Part shown: positions 8,205-24,592 of the stretch, piece by piece | Layout of the letters: every line of letters starts with the position of its first letter | Numbering within the stretch: the first letter of the stretch is position 1 | NCBI RefSeq assembly: GCF_008641065.1 | Contig: NZ_VTRS01000005.1 | Span: forward strand, 124,001-188,000 | Reading direction: 5' to 3' | DNA length: 64,000 nucleotides | From: Rhabdaerophilum calidifontis | GTDB lineage: Bacteria; Pseudomonadota; Alphaproteobacteria; Rhizobiales; Beijerinckiaceae | Made by a program: the position numbers and the translations under genes | The notes under the pieces: generated by a model | Databases searched by the model: none | Told to the model about the DNA's origin: nothing | The model's input: the letters and a program-made list of their open reading frames with translations, nothing else

Positions 8205-8633
8205 ATGCGTCACGGTTACCGCGGCCGGCGCTTCTCGCGCACGGCCAGCCATCGCAAGGCGATGTTCATGAACCTCGCCCAGTCGCTCATCACCCATGAG
8301 CAGATCATGACGACGCTGCCGAAGGCGAAGGATCTTCGCCCGATCGTCGAGAAGCTCGTCACGCTCGGCAAGCGCGGCGACCTGCATGCGCGCCGGCAGG
8401 CGATCGCCCAGCTGCGCGACGAGAGCGTTGTCAAGAAGCTGTTCGACACGATCGCCAAGCGCTACGCGGCGCGCAATGGCGGCTATCTGCGGATCATGAA
8501 GGCCGGGTTCCGCTACGGCGATGCCGCGCCGATGGCGGTGATCGAATTCGTCGACCGCGATGTCGATGCCAAGGGCGCCGCCGACCGGGCGCGTGCGGCC
8601 GAGCAGGCCGCGGAGGCTCCGGCCGCCGCGTGA
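8205..8633 (+). CDS. rplQ: 50S ribosomal protein L17
   Basis: L17 lies near the polypeptide exit tunnel. [20 protein letters not shown] is the diagnostic N-terminus, followed by [20 protein letters not shown] and [20 protein letters not shown]. At 142 residues it carries the alphaproteobacterial C-terminal extension, rich in Ala and Glu and ending in an alanine-rich tail. An AAGGAGAGCCACC site precedes the ATG. It is the last gene of the alpha operon and is followed by an intrinsic terminator. Confidence 0.98.
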
Positions 8634-8657
8634 GGCGCGGCGCCGGGCAGGTTTTCG

Positions 8658-8690
8658 AGGGGCGGCTTCGGCCGCCCCTGTGCGTTTTTA
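8658..8690 (+). terminator. Intrinsic terminator of the alpha operon
   Basis: AGGGGCGGC (8658-8666) pairs with GCCGCCCCT (8671-8679) around a TTCG tetraloop and is followed by a T-rich tail to 8690. It faces rplQ and stands 24 bases after its stop. On the other strand there is no T-run next to the stem, so it serves only the plus strand. Confidence 0.85.
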
Positions 8691-8696
8691 GGCCGA

Positions 8697-9098
8697 TCAG
8701 TTCGACGCCTTGTTCGCCGCCGCCGCAGCGAGGCGTACGAAATCCTCGGCGGTCAGCGCGTTGACCCCGCCGGGGCGGGCGCCTGGATCGCCGGCGGATT
8801 CGGTAACGCCCATCGACCAGCCGCTGAACGTGCGCTCGGGAACCAGGCGCATGTCGAGGAGCTGTACTGCCTCGTGGCGCGGATCGGCGAGGATGCGCGT
8901 CAGCGTCTGGCCGACGGAGACCGCATCGCCTTCCAGGATCTGCGCCAGCCGCTCCGGCGCCACCATCAGGAAGCCGGTGACGCCGCTTTCGGCATTGTGG
9001 CGGCGCGCCGCGGCAAGGATCGTGTCGAGCGTTTTCCGGCCGCTGGTGCCGGTCGGATCGAATCTGGGGCGACTTGTGTAGACAATCTGCGTCAGCAC
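8697..9098 (-). CDS. BLUF-domain blue-light sensor protein
   Basis: The 133-residue product is essentially a single BLUF domain, a FAD-binding blue-light photoreceptor module. The photoactive residues can be placed by comparison with AppA: Tyr7 in QIVYTSR, Asn35 in RRHNAESGVTG, Gln53 in LAQILEGD and Trp94 in FSGWSMG. The LEGD-x-V turn and the ILADPRHEAVQLL segment are also typical. There is no attached output domain, only about 35 extra C-terminal residues, so it probably signals through a partner protein, as the short BLUF proteins do. It is divergent from the degQ-like gene with 53 bases between the starts. The family call is confident; flavin binding and output are inferred. Confidence 0.88.
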   Translation of the reverse strand: MLTQIVYTSRPRFDPTGTSGRKTLDTILAAARRHNAESGVTGFLMVAPERLAQILEGDAVSVGQTLTRILADPRHEAVQLLDMRLVPERTFSGWSMGVTESAGDPGARPGGVNALTAEDFVRLAAAAANKASN

Positions 9099-9151
9099 GA
9101 TCTACTCCACACTTCCATGCGACGAGGCTCCGGCAAGAAGGTGAACCGATC

Positions 9152-10594
9152 ATGCAAGCCTATGACAAAGCTGCGCGCAGGGTTTATCGCGGGTTGATCC
9201 GGCCGCTCGCAATCACGTTGTTCCTCGCCGGCCCCGCCGCCGCGCAGGGGCTCGACTGGTTGCGGCGCGGAGAGCCGGCGGCGCGGCCGCCGGCCTCGCG
9301 CGGAGAAATCGCGCTGTCCTTCGCGCCGGTGGTGAAGGCGGCGGCGCCGGCGGTTGTCAATGTCTATGCGTCGAGCCGCAGCCCGCGCGCGCGCAACCCC
9401 TTCGCGGGGGATCCGTTCTTCGAGCGATTCTTCGGCGCCCAGCCGGAGCGGCAGCGGCAATCCGTCGGCTCCGGCGTGATCGTCGCGAAGGACGGCATCG
9501 TCGTGACCAATCATCACGTCATCGAGGGGATGACCGAGATCAAGGTCGCGCTTGCCGACCGGCGCGAATTCGAGGCGGAGATCAAGCTGCGCGACCCCAA
9601 GACCGATCTCGCGGTGCTCCAGATCAAGGCGCGCGAGAGCTTTGCCTTTCTGGAACTCGGCGATTCCGACCGGGTCGAGGTGGGAGATCTCGTGCTCGCC
9701 ATCGGCAACCCGTTCGGCGTCGGGCAGACGGTGACGCAGGGCATTGTCTCGGCGCTGGCGCGCACCCAGGTCGGCATCTCGGATTATCAGTTCTTCATCC
9801 AGACCGATGCCGCGATCAATCCCGGCAATTCCGGCGGCGCGCTCGTCGACATGGCGGGGCGGGTCGTCGGCATCAACACGGCGATCTTCTCGCGCTCGGG
9901 CGGCAGCCACGGCATCGGGTTCGCGATCCCCGCGAACATGGTGCGCTCGGTGGTCGAGAGCGCGCGCCTCGGCGCGGTGGTGCGCCGGCCCTGGTTCGGC
10001 GCCTCGCTTCAGCCGGTGACGGGAGAGCTTGCCGAGACGCTGGCGCTGACGCGGCCGGCGGGGGCGCTGGTGGCGGGCGTGGTGCCCGGAGGTCCGGCGG
10101 AGCAGGCCGGCATCCGGCGCCTCGACGTGATCGTCGCGGTGGACGGGGTGGCGGTGGAGGATCCGGACGCCTTCGGCTTCCGGTTCGCGACGAAGCCGAT
10201 CGGCGGGCAGGCAATCGTGTCGCTGCTGCGCGGCGGCAAGGCGCAGGATGTCACGGTCCGGCTCGCCGCCCCGCCGGAGACGCCGCCGCGCAATGCCGTG
10301 ACGATCGCGGGCGATTCGCCCTTCACCGGCGCGACGGTGTGGAACCTCTCGCCGGCGGTGAAGGAGGAGCTGTCGCTCGCCCAGGCCGAGGGGGGGATCG
10401 TCATCGCCGCGATCGAGGAGGGCTCGCCGGCGGCGCAGGTCGGGTTCCAGAAGGGCGACGTGATCCTGGCCGTCAACGGCCAGCGGATCGACGATACCGC
10501 CGCCATGGCCCGCGCGACGCGGGCGCGGGCCTATGTCTGGCGGGTGACGCTGAACCGCAACGGTCAGACGATCAATTCGGTGCTCGGAGGCTGA
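9152..10594 (+). CDS. DegQ/DegP-type periplasmic serine protease
   Basis: The product is a Do-family (HtrA) protease-chaperone for misfolded envelope proteins. A signal peptide (hydrophobic ITLFLAGPAAA, probable cut after AQ) is followed by a trypsin-like domain with the triad His122 (TNHHVIEG), Asp152 (KTDLAVLQ) and Ser227 (NPGNSGGALVD). Two PDZ domains fill residues about 290-480. The length of 480 residues is normal. The frame is open to 9074, but the ATG at 9152 follows AAGAAGGTGAACC and starts the signal peptide. rarA follows after one base. Which of DegP, DegQ or DegS-like names fits cannot be settled; two PDZ domains argue against DegS. Confidence 0.95.
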   Translation: MQAYDKAARRVYRGLIRPLAITLFLAGPAAAQGLDWLRRGEPAARPPASRGEIALSFAPVVKAAAPAVVNVYASSRSPRARNPFAGDPFFERFFGAQPERQRQSVGSGVIVAKDGIVVTNHHVIEGMTEIKVALADRREFEAEIKLRDPKTDLAVLQIKARESFAFLELGDSDRVEVGDLVLAIGNPFGVGQTVTQGIVSALARTQVGISDYQFFIQTDAAINPGNSGGALVDMAGRVVGINTAIFSRSGGSHGIGFAIPANMVRSVVESARLGAVVRRPWFGASLQPVTGELAETLALTRPAGALVAGVVPGGPAEQAGIRRLDVIVAVDGVAVEDPDAFGFRFATKPIGGQAIVSLLRGGKAQDVTVRLAAPPETPPRNAVTIAGDSPFTGATVWNLSPAVKEELSLAQAEGGIVIAAIEEGSPAAQVGFQKGDVILAVNGQRIDDTAAMARATRARAYVWRVTLNRNGQTINSVLGG

Positions 10595-10595
10595 G

Positions 10596-11888
10596 ATGAC
10601 CGCCGGAGCCGGGGAGCCGCCCCGCCCGCTGGCGGACAGGATGCGGCCGGAAGTGCTGGCCGATCTCGTCGGGCAGGAGCATCTCACCGGCGAGGATGGC
10701 GCCCTGCGCCGGCTTTTGCGCTCCGGCTCCATCGGCTCGCTGATCCTCTGGGGGCCGCCCGGCACCGGCAAGACCACGGTGGCGCGGCTGCTGGCGCACG
10801 AGACCGACCTCGCCTTCGAGCAGGTCTCGGCGATCTTCTCCGGCGTCGCGGATCTCAAGAAGGTGTTCGAGGGCGCGCGGCTGCGCCGCCGGATGGGGCA
10901 GGGGACGCTGCTTTTCGTCGACGAGATCCATCGGTTCAACCGCGCGCAGCAGGACAGTTTCCTGCCGGTGATGGAGGATGGCACGATCACGCTTGTCGGG
11001 GCGACGACCGAGAACCCGTCCTTCGCGCTCAATGCCGCGCTGCTGTCCCGCGCGCGGGTTCTGACCTTCAGGCCGCTCGACGCGGCGGCGATCCTCGCCC
11101 TGCTCGACCGCGCCGAGGCGCGGACCGGCGCGCGCCTGCCGTTGAGCGAGGCGGCGCGGCTCGCGCTTGCGCGGATGGCGGATGGCGACGGCCGGGCGGC
11201 GCTGACCCTCGCCGAGGAAATCTGGCGCGCGGCCGCGCCGGGCGAAGTGCTGGATGAGGCCGGGCTCGGCGCCGTGGTCCAGCGCCGGGCGCCGATCTAC
11301 GACAAGAGCGAGGACGGGCATTACAACCTGATCTCGGCGCTGCACAAATCCGTGCGCGGCTCCGATCCAGACGCCGCGCTCTATTATTTCTGCCGCATGT
11401 GCGATGCCGGCGAGGATCCGCGCTTCCTCGCGCGCCGGCTGGTGCGGATGGCGGTGGAGGATATCGGGCTCGCCGATCCACAGGCGCTGGTTCATGCCCG
11501 CGCGGCCGCGGAAGCCTATGAGCAGCTCGGCTCGCCCGAGGGGGAACTCGCGCTCGCCAATGCGGTGCTCTATCTCGCGACCGCGCCGAAATCGAACGCC
11601 GCCTACACCGCCTTCAAGGCAGCGATGCGGGTTGCGAAGGAGGCCGGCTCGCTCGCGCCGCCGAAGACCATCCTCAACGCGCCGACGAAATTCATGAAGG
11701 CGGAAGGTTATGGCGCGGGCTACGATTACGATCACGATGCGCCGCATGCCTTTTCGGGGCAGGATTACTGGCCCGAGGCGCTGGGCCGGCAGCATTTCTA
11801 CGCTCCGCCGGAGCGCGGCTTCGAGCGCGAGATCGTCAAGCGGCTGGAATTCTGGGCGAAGCTCCGGCGCGAGCGCCGGGGCGGGTGA
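10596..11888 (+). CDS. rarA: Replication-associated recombination protein A (AAA+ ATPase)
   Basis: RarA (MgsA) is a clamp-loader-like AAA+ ATPase acting at stalled replication forks. The 430-residue product shows Walker A GPPGTGKTT, Walker B LLFVDEIHRFN, sensor 1 LVGATTENPSF and the arginine-finger stretch LLSRARVLTF, followed by the C-terminal tetramerisation domain with RLVRMAVEDIGLADPQAL and FMKAEGYGAGY-YDHD. It begins one base after the protease stop (TGA-g-ATG), so the two are probably co-translated, an arrangement seen in other alphaproteobacteria. Confidence 0.96.
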   Translation: MTAGAGEPPRPLADRMRPEVLADLVGQEHLTGEDGALRRLLRSGSIGSLILWGPPGTGKTTVARLLAHETDLAFEQVSAIFSGVADLKKVFEGARLRRRMGQGTLLFVDEIHRFNRAQQDSFLPVMEDGTITLVGATTENPSFALNAALLSRARVLTFRPLDAAAILALLDRAEARTGARLPLSEAARLALARMADGDGRAALTLAEEIWRAAAPGEVLDEAGLGAVVQRRAPIYDKSEDGHYNLISALHKSVRGSDPDAALYYFCRMCDAGEDPRFLARRLVRMAVEDIGLADPQALVHARAAAEAYEQLGSPEGELALANAVLYLATAPKSNAAYTAFKAAMRVAKEAGSLAPPKTILNAPTKFMKAEGYGAGYDYDHDAPHAFSGQDYWPEALGRQHFYAPPERGFEREIVKRLEFWAKLRRERRGG

Positions 11889-15784: not shown

Positions 15785-15798
15785 CTGATTTGGCGCAA
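15785..15798 (+). promoter_or_regulatory. Weak FNR/FixK-like box upstream of the stress protein
   Basis: CTGAT-TTGG-CGCAA resembles the FNR/FixK operator TTGAT-N4-ATCAA at seven of ten positions. It lies 57 bases before the start of a universal stress protein, a gene class often under oxygen control in this group. The match is weak and could be chance. Confidence 0.2.
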
Positions 15799-15854
15799 TG
15801 CCGCCGGCGCGGCATCATGCGAGCCTTGATCATCCGAGAGTTCAGGAGAATGTC

Positions 15855-16706
15855 ATGTCCGAGCCGATCCACCGCCTGACCGATATCGCCTGCCTTGTCC
15901 GCGTGGCTGAAACGACGCCGATGGCCGCAATCCGGCAGACGATCGCGCTGGCAGCGGCGGCGCGCGCCATCGCGCATGTGACCCTCGGCGTGCAGACCTT
16001 CACGCCGCCCTATACGCCGTTCTGGACCGGAATCGCCGACACGATCGCCGCCGATGTCAACCAGAAGGCCGCGGCGATCGCCGAGGATCTCGCGGAGGAA
16101 ATCCGCAAGCAGGCGGCGGGCGCGGGTGTCGAGGCCGATGTCGATATCGTGCGTGGCGCCTTTGCCGGCGTCGCGGAACATGCCGCGCGGGCGGCGCGCG
16201 CCGCCGATCTCGTGGTGGTCGATCAGCCGCATGGCGCGCTCGACACCAGCGAGGTCCTGTTCGAGGAGGCGCTGTTCCGCTCCGGCCGGCCGGTGCTGGT
16301 GGCGGCGCCGGATGTCGCGCCGGTGACGGCGCCGACGCGGATCGTGGTGGCCTGGGACGGGTCCTGCCACGCGGCCCGCGCCACCGCCGACGCGCTCTTC
16401 GCCTTCCCCTCGATCCGCGAGGTCGATCTCGTGACGGTGAGCGGCGAGAAATCGCTGGCCAACATCCTGCCACCGGCGGCGTTCGGCGCGCATCTCGGCC
16501 GCAAGGGGCTCGCGGTGACCGTCAGCGATGTCGCGCGGCGCGATCTCTCGGTGGCGGCGGCGCTCGACCATTACGCCCGCAATTCCGGCGCGCATCTCCT
16601 CGTCATGGGCGGGTTCGGCCATACGCGGCTGATGGAATTCCTGCTCGGCGGCGTCACGGTCGAACTGACCGGCTCGGCACGCCTGCCGCTGCTGATGTCC
16701 TATTGA
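15855..16706 (+). CDS. Universal stress protein (tandem UspA domains)
   Basis: The 283-residue product is about twice one Usp domain and appears to be two domains in tandem, the first degenerate. The second has TRIVVAWDGSCHAARATADAL and the nucleotide-binding stretch MGGFGHTRLMEFLLGG-VTVEL near the C-terminus, which matches G-x2-G-x9-G-(S/T) in a variant form. Such proteins are cytoplasmic and help survival under starvation or oxygen limitation. ATG 15855 follows CAGGAGAATGTC; an upstream in-frame ATG at 15798 is less likely. It is convergent with the dipeptidase gene. Confidence 0.9.
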   Translation: MSEPIHRLTDIACLVRVAETTPMAAIRQTIALAAAARAIAHVTLGVQTFTPPYTPFWTGIADTIAADVNQKAAAIAEDLAEEIRKQAAGAGVEADVDIVRGAFAGVAEHAARAARAADLVVVDQPHGALDTSEVLFEEALFRSGRPVLVAAPDVAPVTAPTRIVVAWDGSCHAARATADALFAFPSIREVDLVTVSGEKSLANILPPAAFGAHLGRKGLAVTVSDVARRDLSVAAALDHYARNSGAHLLVMGGFGHTRLMEFLLGGVTVELTGSARLPLLMSY

Positions 16707-22495: not shown

Positions 22496-24592
22496 ATGGC
22501 CGGCCGGTCGATGGTGCGATTGCTCGATTTCGCGGTCGCGGGCCTGTTCGTGCTGGCGCTGACGATCCTCGGCCTGTTCGCCTGGGCGGCGCGCGTCGCC
22601 GACCGCAATGCCTTCGCCATCGAGACCCAGATCGTCGGGCAGGAACTCGGCCGCGTGGTCACGCAGTTCCGCAACGATCTGCCGAACGGGCTCGTCGATC
22701 GCGCGCGCTGGCAGGGTGTCGCGCGGGAGACGCGGCTGGTGCTGGCCGACGATGCCGCGCGCGGCAATCCGCCCGGCGGGACCGGCCGCTTCACCGGCCT
22801 GCTCGCCGATCCCGCGACCCGGGCGCGGATCGACGAATTGCGCGCGGCCTTCGCGCGTGTCGAGCCTCCGCGCGGGCATGTCGAGTTCATCCGTCTCGGG
22901 CCGCCCGGCGGCGAGATGCTGGCGCTGGCGGCCCGGATCGGCAGGCCGGGCGAATCCCCGGCGCTCGCATTCGAACTCGTCGATCTCCCGGCCATGGCGG
23001 CGGCGCTCGAAACGCTGTCGATCGAATTGTTCCCGGTCACCGGCCCTTATGCCGAGCCCGAGGCGGCGAATGGCCGGCTCGAACTCGCCGGGCTCGGCGG
23101 CGAGATCGTCGGCCGGCTCTTCTGGCGCGGCCAGCGGCTCGCGGCGATCGCGTCGCGGCAGATCCTGCCGGCGCTGGTGGCAATCCTGTGCGCGGCCTCG
23201 GTGATCCTGTTCCTGATGCGCCGGCGCTGGCGGAGCGCGGGGGAGAGCTTCGAGCGTGATCTCGAACGCGTGGAGCAGATGGCCGGCACCGACACGCTGA
23301 CCGGGCTTCCAAACCGGCGGGCGCTGTTCCGGCATCTGGCGGCGATCGCGCCGCCGGCCCAGGCCTTCCCGCCGATCACCGTGATGATGCTCGATCTCGA
23401 CGGGTTCAAATGGGTCAACGACACGCTCGGCCACGAGGCCGGCGACCGGCTTCTGGTGCAGGCGGCGGCGGTGTTCCGGGCGGAACTCGGGCCGGAGACC
23501 TTCCTCGCGCGGCTCGGCGGCGATGAATTCGTCGCTGTGGTGCCGGGCGAGGTGGTCGGCGGCGCGTTGACGCGCCTGCACGCCCATCTCAGCGAGACCC
23601 TGCGCCGGCGGGTGCCATCCAGCCTTGCGGGGACACCGGTCGGTGTCAGCATCGGCGCGGTTTCCTCCGTCGCCGAGGGCGGCAGCGGCGAGCACCTGCT
23701 GAGCCTTGCCGATATCGCGGTCTACGCCGCCAAGGCGGCGGGGCGCGGCGCCGCCGTCTCCTATGACGGCAGCATGGAGGTGGAGAAGGCGTTCCGCCGC
23801 TCGCTGGAGCGCGACCTGCGCGCCGCGGTGCTCACCCGCGAATTGCGCGTGCATCACCAGCCGATCGTCGAGGCGCTGAGCGGCAAGGTCGTCGGCTACG
23901 AGAGCCTCGTGCGCTGGCAACACCCGTTCCGCGGCCTGCTGATGCCGGCGGAATTCATCCCGCTGGCGGAGGACACGGATCTCATCGTCGAGATCGGCAA
24001 CGCGGTGCTCAATCAGGCGCTGGAGGAACTGGCCTCGGTGGGAAATTGCCGGATCTCGGTCAACACCACCGGCCGGCAATTGATCTCGCCGGGTTTCGTC
24101 GAGCATGTGAAGGCATTGCTGGTCCGGTACGGGGTGGCGCCGCAGCGGCTCTGCCTCGAACTGACCGAGACCAGCCTCATCACCGATGGCGAACGCGTGG
24201 GCGCGGTGCTCACCGCCCTGCGCGCCCATGGCGTGCGGGTGGCGATCGATGATTTCGGCACCGGCTATTCGAGCCTCTCCTACCTGATGCGCTTCACCTT
24301 CGACACGCTGAAGCTCGACCGGACCTTCATCGCCGCGCTCGACAACAAGCCGGAATCGCCGACGATCGTGACCTCGATCACCGCGCTCGCGCGCTCGCTC
24401 GGCATGGAGATCGTCGGCGAGGGGGTGGAGACGGTGCAGCAGCAGATCTTCCTCGCCGCGGCCGGCGTCACCTGCCTCCAGGGCTACCTGTTCGGCCGCC
24501 CTGTTCCGCTCGAAAAACTGGTTCGCGGCACCGCGCCGCTTGTTCCCGGCGCGGAAACCGCTACCCTTGGCAAGACGCAGAGAGCCGCCTGA
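22496..24592 (+). CDS. Membrane GGDEF-EAL cyclic-di-GMP enzyme
   Basis: The 698-residue product carries a TM segment near residues 10-30, a periplasmic sensor part of about 190 residues, a second TM near 220-240, a GGDEF domain (TLTGLPNRRALF; RLGGDEFVAVV near 340) and an EAL domain. The EAL motif reads ESL in GYESLVRW; the Glu is kept, as are DDFGTGYSSL, KLDRTFI and GEGVET, so both synthesis and hydrolysis of c-di-GMP look possible. No RxxD inhibition site lies before GGDEF. GGGGAGAGAATCCGG precedes the ATG. The lysozyme gene begins one base after its stop. The preceding 143-base gap is relatively AT-rich and probably holds the promoter. Confidence 0.94.
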   Translation: MAGRSMVRLLDFAVAGLFVLALTILGLFAWAARVADRNAFAIETQIVGQELGRVVTQFRNDLPNGLVDRARWQGVARETRLVLADDAARGNPPGGTGRFTGLLADPATRARIDELRAAFARVEPPRGHVEFIRLGPPGGEMLALAARIGRPGESPALAFELVDLPAMAAALETLSIELFPVTGPYAEPEAANGRLELAGLGGEIVGRLFWRGQRLAAIASRQILPALVAILCAASVILFLMRRRWRSAGESFERDLERVEQMAGTDTLTGLPNRRALFRHLAAIAPPAQAFPPITVMMLDLDGFKWVNDTLGHEAGDRLLVQAAAVFRAELGPETFLARLGGDEFVAVVPGEVVGGALTRLHAHLSETLRRRVPSSLAGTPVGVSIGAVSSVAEGGSGEHLLSLADIAVYAAKAAGRGAAVSYDGSMEVEKAFRRSLERDLRAAVLTRELRVHHQPIVEALSGKVVGYESLVRWQHPFRGLLMPAEFIPLAEDTDLIVEIGNAVLNQALEELASVGNCRISVNTTGRQLISPGFVEHVKALLVRYGVAPQRLCLELTETSLITDGERVGAVLTALRAHGVRVAIDDFGTGYSSLSYLMRFTFDTLKLDRTFIAALDNKPESPTIVTSITALARSLGMEIVGEGVETVQQQIFLAAAGVTCLQGYLFGRPVPLEKLVRGTAPLVPGAETATLGKTQRAA

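Follow-up and report, generated by a model that had tools for sequence, protein, structure and literature searches.

When a photoreceptor gene is found head to head with a protease gene, a question of function arises: does light govern the protease, or does the arrangement reflect the history of the locus? This question is raised by a 64,000-nucleotide stretch of the Rhabdaerophilum calidifontis genome (hereafter, the window), in which the gene of a BLUF protein lies between rplQ and a protease-rarA unit (Table 1). Here we argue that the protein is, quite probably, an ordinary short BLUF that was inserted at this junction in the distant past, has often been lost, and acts on a cytoplasmic partner.

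Table 1. Features at the rplQ-BLUF-protease junction (window coordinates)
Feature	Position	Strand	Basis
rplQ (ribosomal protein L17), convergent with BLUF	8205..8633	+	TIGR00059, 145.7 bits
Intrinsic terminator with 9-bp stem and T run, separating rplQ from the BLUF 3' end	8658..8689	+	Terminator scan
Stand-alone (short) BLUF photoreceptor, 133 aa, GTG start	8697..9098	-	Pfam BLUF, AlphaFold2 model, residues
BLUF/protease intergenic region, 53 bp, both ribosome-binding sites inside	9099..9151	.	Sequence
Do-family (DegP/HtrA-type) serine endopeptidase	9152..10594	+	TIGR02037 and Pfam
rarA (MgsA-type AAA+ ATPase)	10596..11888	+	Pfam MgsA_C, 9.4e-65

The BLUF reading frame is well delimited: GGAG lies 6 nt 5' of the start codon, and an in-frame TAG immediately precedes this codon, so that a longer start is impossible. 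The protein aligns with the Pfam BLUF model from end to end (positions 1-92 of 92), at 8.7e-24 and with 83.9 bits where the cut-off is 25, and no other domain rises above the Pfam cut-off; in particular, Pfam recognizes no output domain, and the BLUF domain is followed only by a C-terminal helical cap, as in short BLUFs. The protein also has neither a DNA-binding domain nor a signal peptide. It is the sole BLUF in the 3.09-Mb genome. In an alignment of 58 BLUF proteins of the family, Tyr7 and Gln53 are invariant and Asn35, Trp94 and Met96 are conserved at 90% or more; the window protein keeps all five, each in a conserved column, and its flavin-pocket columns align with those of the solved PixD proteins Slr1694 and Tll0078. 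A small departure is Leu51, where more than 90% of the relatives carry Phe. The AlphaFold2 model (pLDDT 90.6) predicts the ferredoxin-like BLUF fold, with a TM score of about 0.8 against PixD and BlrB, and with C-terminal helices at residues 111-114 and 117-132; the best matches among solved structures are TePixD, Slr1694, BlrB, BlsA and AppA. The short type accounts for the majority of bacterial BLUFs (PMC4844311), and the window protein is an ordinary member of this well-known kind.

The initial annotation had described much the same protein, namely, a stand-alone BLUF without an output domain and with Tyr7, Asn35, Gln53 and Trp94 in place, and the conserved photochemical residues agree with its view that the protein is probably light-responsive. 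Its placement of the gene divergent from a protease-rarA unit, across 53 bases, is likewise accurate, with the protease ATG at 9152. The name that it gave to the protease, DegQ-like, stands in part: the enzyme belongs to the Do family (474 bits against the TIGR02037 cut-off of 416) but falls short of the E. coli DegQ equivalog PRK10139 (302.5 bits, cut-off 756), and Do-family (DegP/HtrA-type) is, by these profile scores, the safer label. Pfam assigns to it a trypsin-like domain and two PDZ domains, and a Sec signal peptide was judged by eye. A second Do-family homologue, 40% identical to this protease, is encoded elsewhere in the genome. The protease stop and the rarA start are one base apart. 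The terminator downstream of rplQ is, by itself, not rare in comparison with shuffled sequences (0.4 expected), and its RNA fold is unexceptional (z -0.65). Further along the window, a universal-stress-protein-like gene is found at 15798-16706 (Usp, 1.3e-06).

How widely is this arrangement kept? BLUF genes are present in 82 of the 199 genomes of the family; in 16 of the 199, representing five genera, the gene is located 3' of rplQ, towards the protease, and is antisense every time. These comprise six of the ten genomes of the window's genus (g1), five genomes of g12, two of g23, one of g15 and two of g41, in one of which (G186) the contig stops before any protease could be seen. The BLUF gene is directly divergent from the protease in four genera and adjoins rplQ in the fifth, and it sits inside a compact rplQ-rarA block in 13 family genomes. 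The BLUF-protease gap is short in most of the window's genus and measures about 150-270 bp outside it. A junction BLUF outside the family is unsupported: at the order level, neither rplQ nor the protease adjoins BLUF in any of the 25 new loci, each surveyed with flanks of only 1.5 kb. The open-licence literature on BLUF with DegP, or on the genomic context of BLUF, yielded no report of an rplQ-BLUF-protease junction.

The flanking genes have a longer history together. The rplQ-protease-rarA block occurs without BLUF in Mesorhizobium, Bartonella and others, in a scan of named organisms that covered mostly Rhizobiaceae and relatives, and there is no BLUF in the block in 57 of the 70 family genomes that have rplQ and rarA within 8 kb; judging from this gene order, the block is older than the BLUF insertion. 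Within the window's genus, the BLUFs at the junction group together in a single clade (support 96/97), and the species tree contains a BLUF-less clade (G117, G153, G166, G192 and the pond MAG L074); the genus-mates without BLUF retain the rplQ-protease-rarA block intact. In the window's lineage as a whole, BLUF is missing from the junction in 5 of the 11 genomes examined. This distribution is consistent with the presence of BLUF in the genus ancestor and one subsequent loss in the BLUF-less clade. Family-wide, the AU test weakly rejects a single clade of all junction BLUFs (p = 0.04), and it allows one clade for those of g1 and g12 taken together (p = 0.40). Therefore, more than one insertion, or else shuffling of BLUF genes, is possible, and repeated arrival, if true, would speak mildly for a favoured site.

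Other genes have entered the same interval. As read off the translations, the two genes between rplQ and BLUF in G011 encode a CPBP-like protease and a receptor of the tripartite tricarboxylate type, and a glycosyltransferase-like gene separates BLUF from the protease in G104; another gene adjoins BLUF in G186. Across the family, the unrelated genes found between rplQ and the protease vary from genome to genome (e.g., L158, L165, L167). Thus, the interval behaves as an insertion site within a conserved block.

The view of the window protein as an ordinary short BLUF is based on its domain, residues, predicted fold and position, on its absence in relatives, and on purifying selection in most of the close junction pairs (see below). 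By analogy with PixD, PapB and BlsA, the protein would bind FAD; blue light would rearrange the hydrogen bonds among Tyr7, Gln53 and the flavin, and this change would be relayed through the beta-sheet and the C-terminal helix to a cytoplasmic partner protein. The gene itself would have entered the older block long ago, in antisense orientation, in the interval that separates rplQ from the protease, and would have been inherited mainly vertically, with repeated losses. That the protein binds flavin, is photoactive and has such a partner is inferred, as is the direction of the losses. Short BLUFs act through a separate partner protein. For instance, PapB acts on the EAL protein PapA (PMC8846402), PixD functions in phototaxis (PMC4844311), and BlsA acts on Fur (PMC5955987). 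The neighbourhood of the window gene does not point to its partner.

The precedent of PapB, an alphaproteobacterial short BLUF that regulates an EAL protein, suggests a narrower form of this explanation, the probability of which overlaps with that of the broader one: the window protein could be a PapB-like light switch whose target is a c-di-GMP phosphodiesterase from another locus. Eight EAL matches were counted in the genome, one of them in a protein without a recognized GGDEF domain, but the other seven are GGDEF-EAL fusions rather than solo EAL proteins, the GGDEF-less protein, of 598 residues, matches EAL only weakly (51 bits), and no EAL protein adjoins the BLUF gene. We consider such a switch unlikely, and the eight EAL proteins are candidates only. 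One of the eight, a GGDEF-EAL protein, is encoded in the window itself, on the (+) strand at 22496-24592, with its EAL match falling at genome position C15:147810; another EAL protein lies at C14:218467.

A second alternative, that the BLUF gene is a relic under relaxed constraint whose light function is being lost in the genus, draws on the 5 of 11 absences and on the rate of BLUF evolution. BLUF proteins are 37-41% identical among genomes whose proteases are 71-75% identical, and among divergent members of the genus dN/dS reaches 0.33-0.53, with dS near saturation. In close junction pairs, however, BLUF dN/dS is 0.21-0.27 in most cases (0.43 in the G022-G062 pair), as compared to 0.03-0.17 for the protease, and the frame is open in every junction copy. 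The junction BLUF is a real gene that evolves faster than the neighbouring protease. The copy in G137 (L037:7780-8181), also with an open frame, carries Ala in place of Asn35 and has lost both Trp94 and Met96, so that its light function is probably gone and, to judge from these substitutions, it would be a natural mutant. Such a copy speaks for decay; with all photochemical residues intact and a confidently predicted fold, the window BLUF itself speaks against it, and we regard the relic interpretation as rather improbable.

The light-protease link, which the initial annotation had raised, would have the BLUF control the divergent protease-rarA genes in blue light, via a DNA-binding partner or a shared promoter region, and so tie light stress to envelope quality control. 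The divergent order in four genera, the short gaps in most of the window's genus and the 13 compact blocks favour it, and the pair is indeed kept in relatives; nevertheless, its conservation is explained by position and does not establish a connection in function. The block predates BLUF, BLUF was lost in one clade of the genus while the protease was retained, unrelated genes share the interval, with one of them coming between the pair in G104, and the gap widens outside the genus. Furthermore, a cytoplasmic BLUF cannot directly reach a protease that is predicted to be periplasmic, and, lacking a DNA-binding domain, would need a regulator for any effect on transcription. A protease promoter would overlap the BLUF 5' end, and additional conservation of synonymous codons was therefore sought there; none was seen (40% conserved versus 43% in the rest of the gene), and a shared promoter conserved in DNA was rejected on that basis. 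The promoter scan gave no sigma-70-type match within 8500-9300. In genus-mates without BLUF (L154-L157), the stretches GGGCTGGCGAATCG and TTAGGCGAAACC are conserved 5' of the protease start and are possibly the promoter of the protease gene. We thus find control of protease-rarA, with its tie to envelope quality control, very improbable, and give only a slim chance to the version in which the BLUF sets this expression through a regulator, and the adjacency is better read as gene order that was inherited than as evidence of light control; the other suggestion of the initial annotation, a protein partner elsewhere, fits better. If true, the link would give BLUF proteins a new output and would make the protease-rarA unit a light-run module of envelope quality control and replication-repair, shared by several genera within one hyphomicrobial family. 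Finally, AppA-type control of photosynthesis genes is unlikely because the genome has no reaction-centre gene.

Taken as an ancient insertion, the junction gives a short BLUF lineage a conserved place in the genome, and the window's genus offers a case of photoreceptor loss within one genus. A caution also follows: a short divergent intergenic region is a poor guide to function when the flanking block predates the gene.

Among the known short BLUFs, BlsA of Acinetobacter resembles the window protein in fold (TM 0.78-0.81) and acts through partners (PMC5955987), but it is only 23% identical and comes from another lineage and another gene context. BlrB of Rhodobacter sphaeroides is, like the window protein, an alphaproteobacterial short BLUF (TM 0.82), at 26% identity. 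PapB of Rhodopseudomonas palustris, which acts on a distinct protein as its partner (PMC8846402), is similar by description, although no clear gene for a PapA-like solo EAL protein is found beside the window BLUF or elsewhere in the genome. PixD (Slr1694 of Synechocystis and Tll0078/TePixD) differs in its sequence (24-27% identity), in the C-terminal cap, which is shorter and of different sequence in the window BLUF, and in that no partner gene is recognized beside the latter; yet PixD, too, stands alone, is similar in length and predicted fold (TM about 0.83), and shares the photochemical residues.
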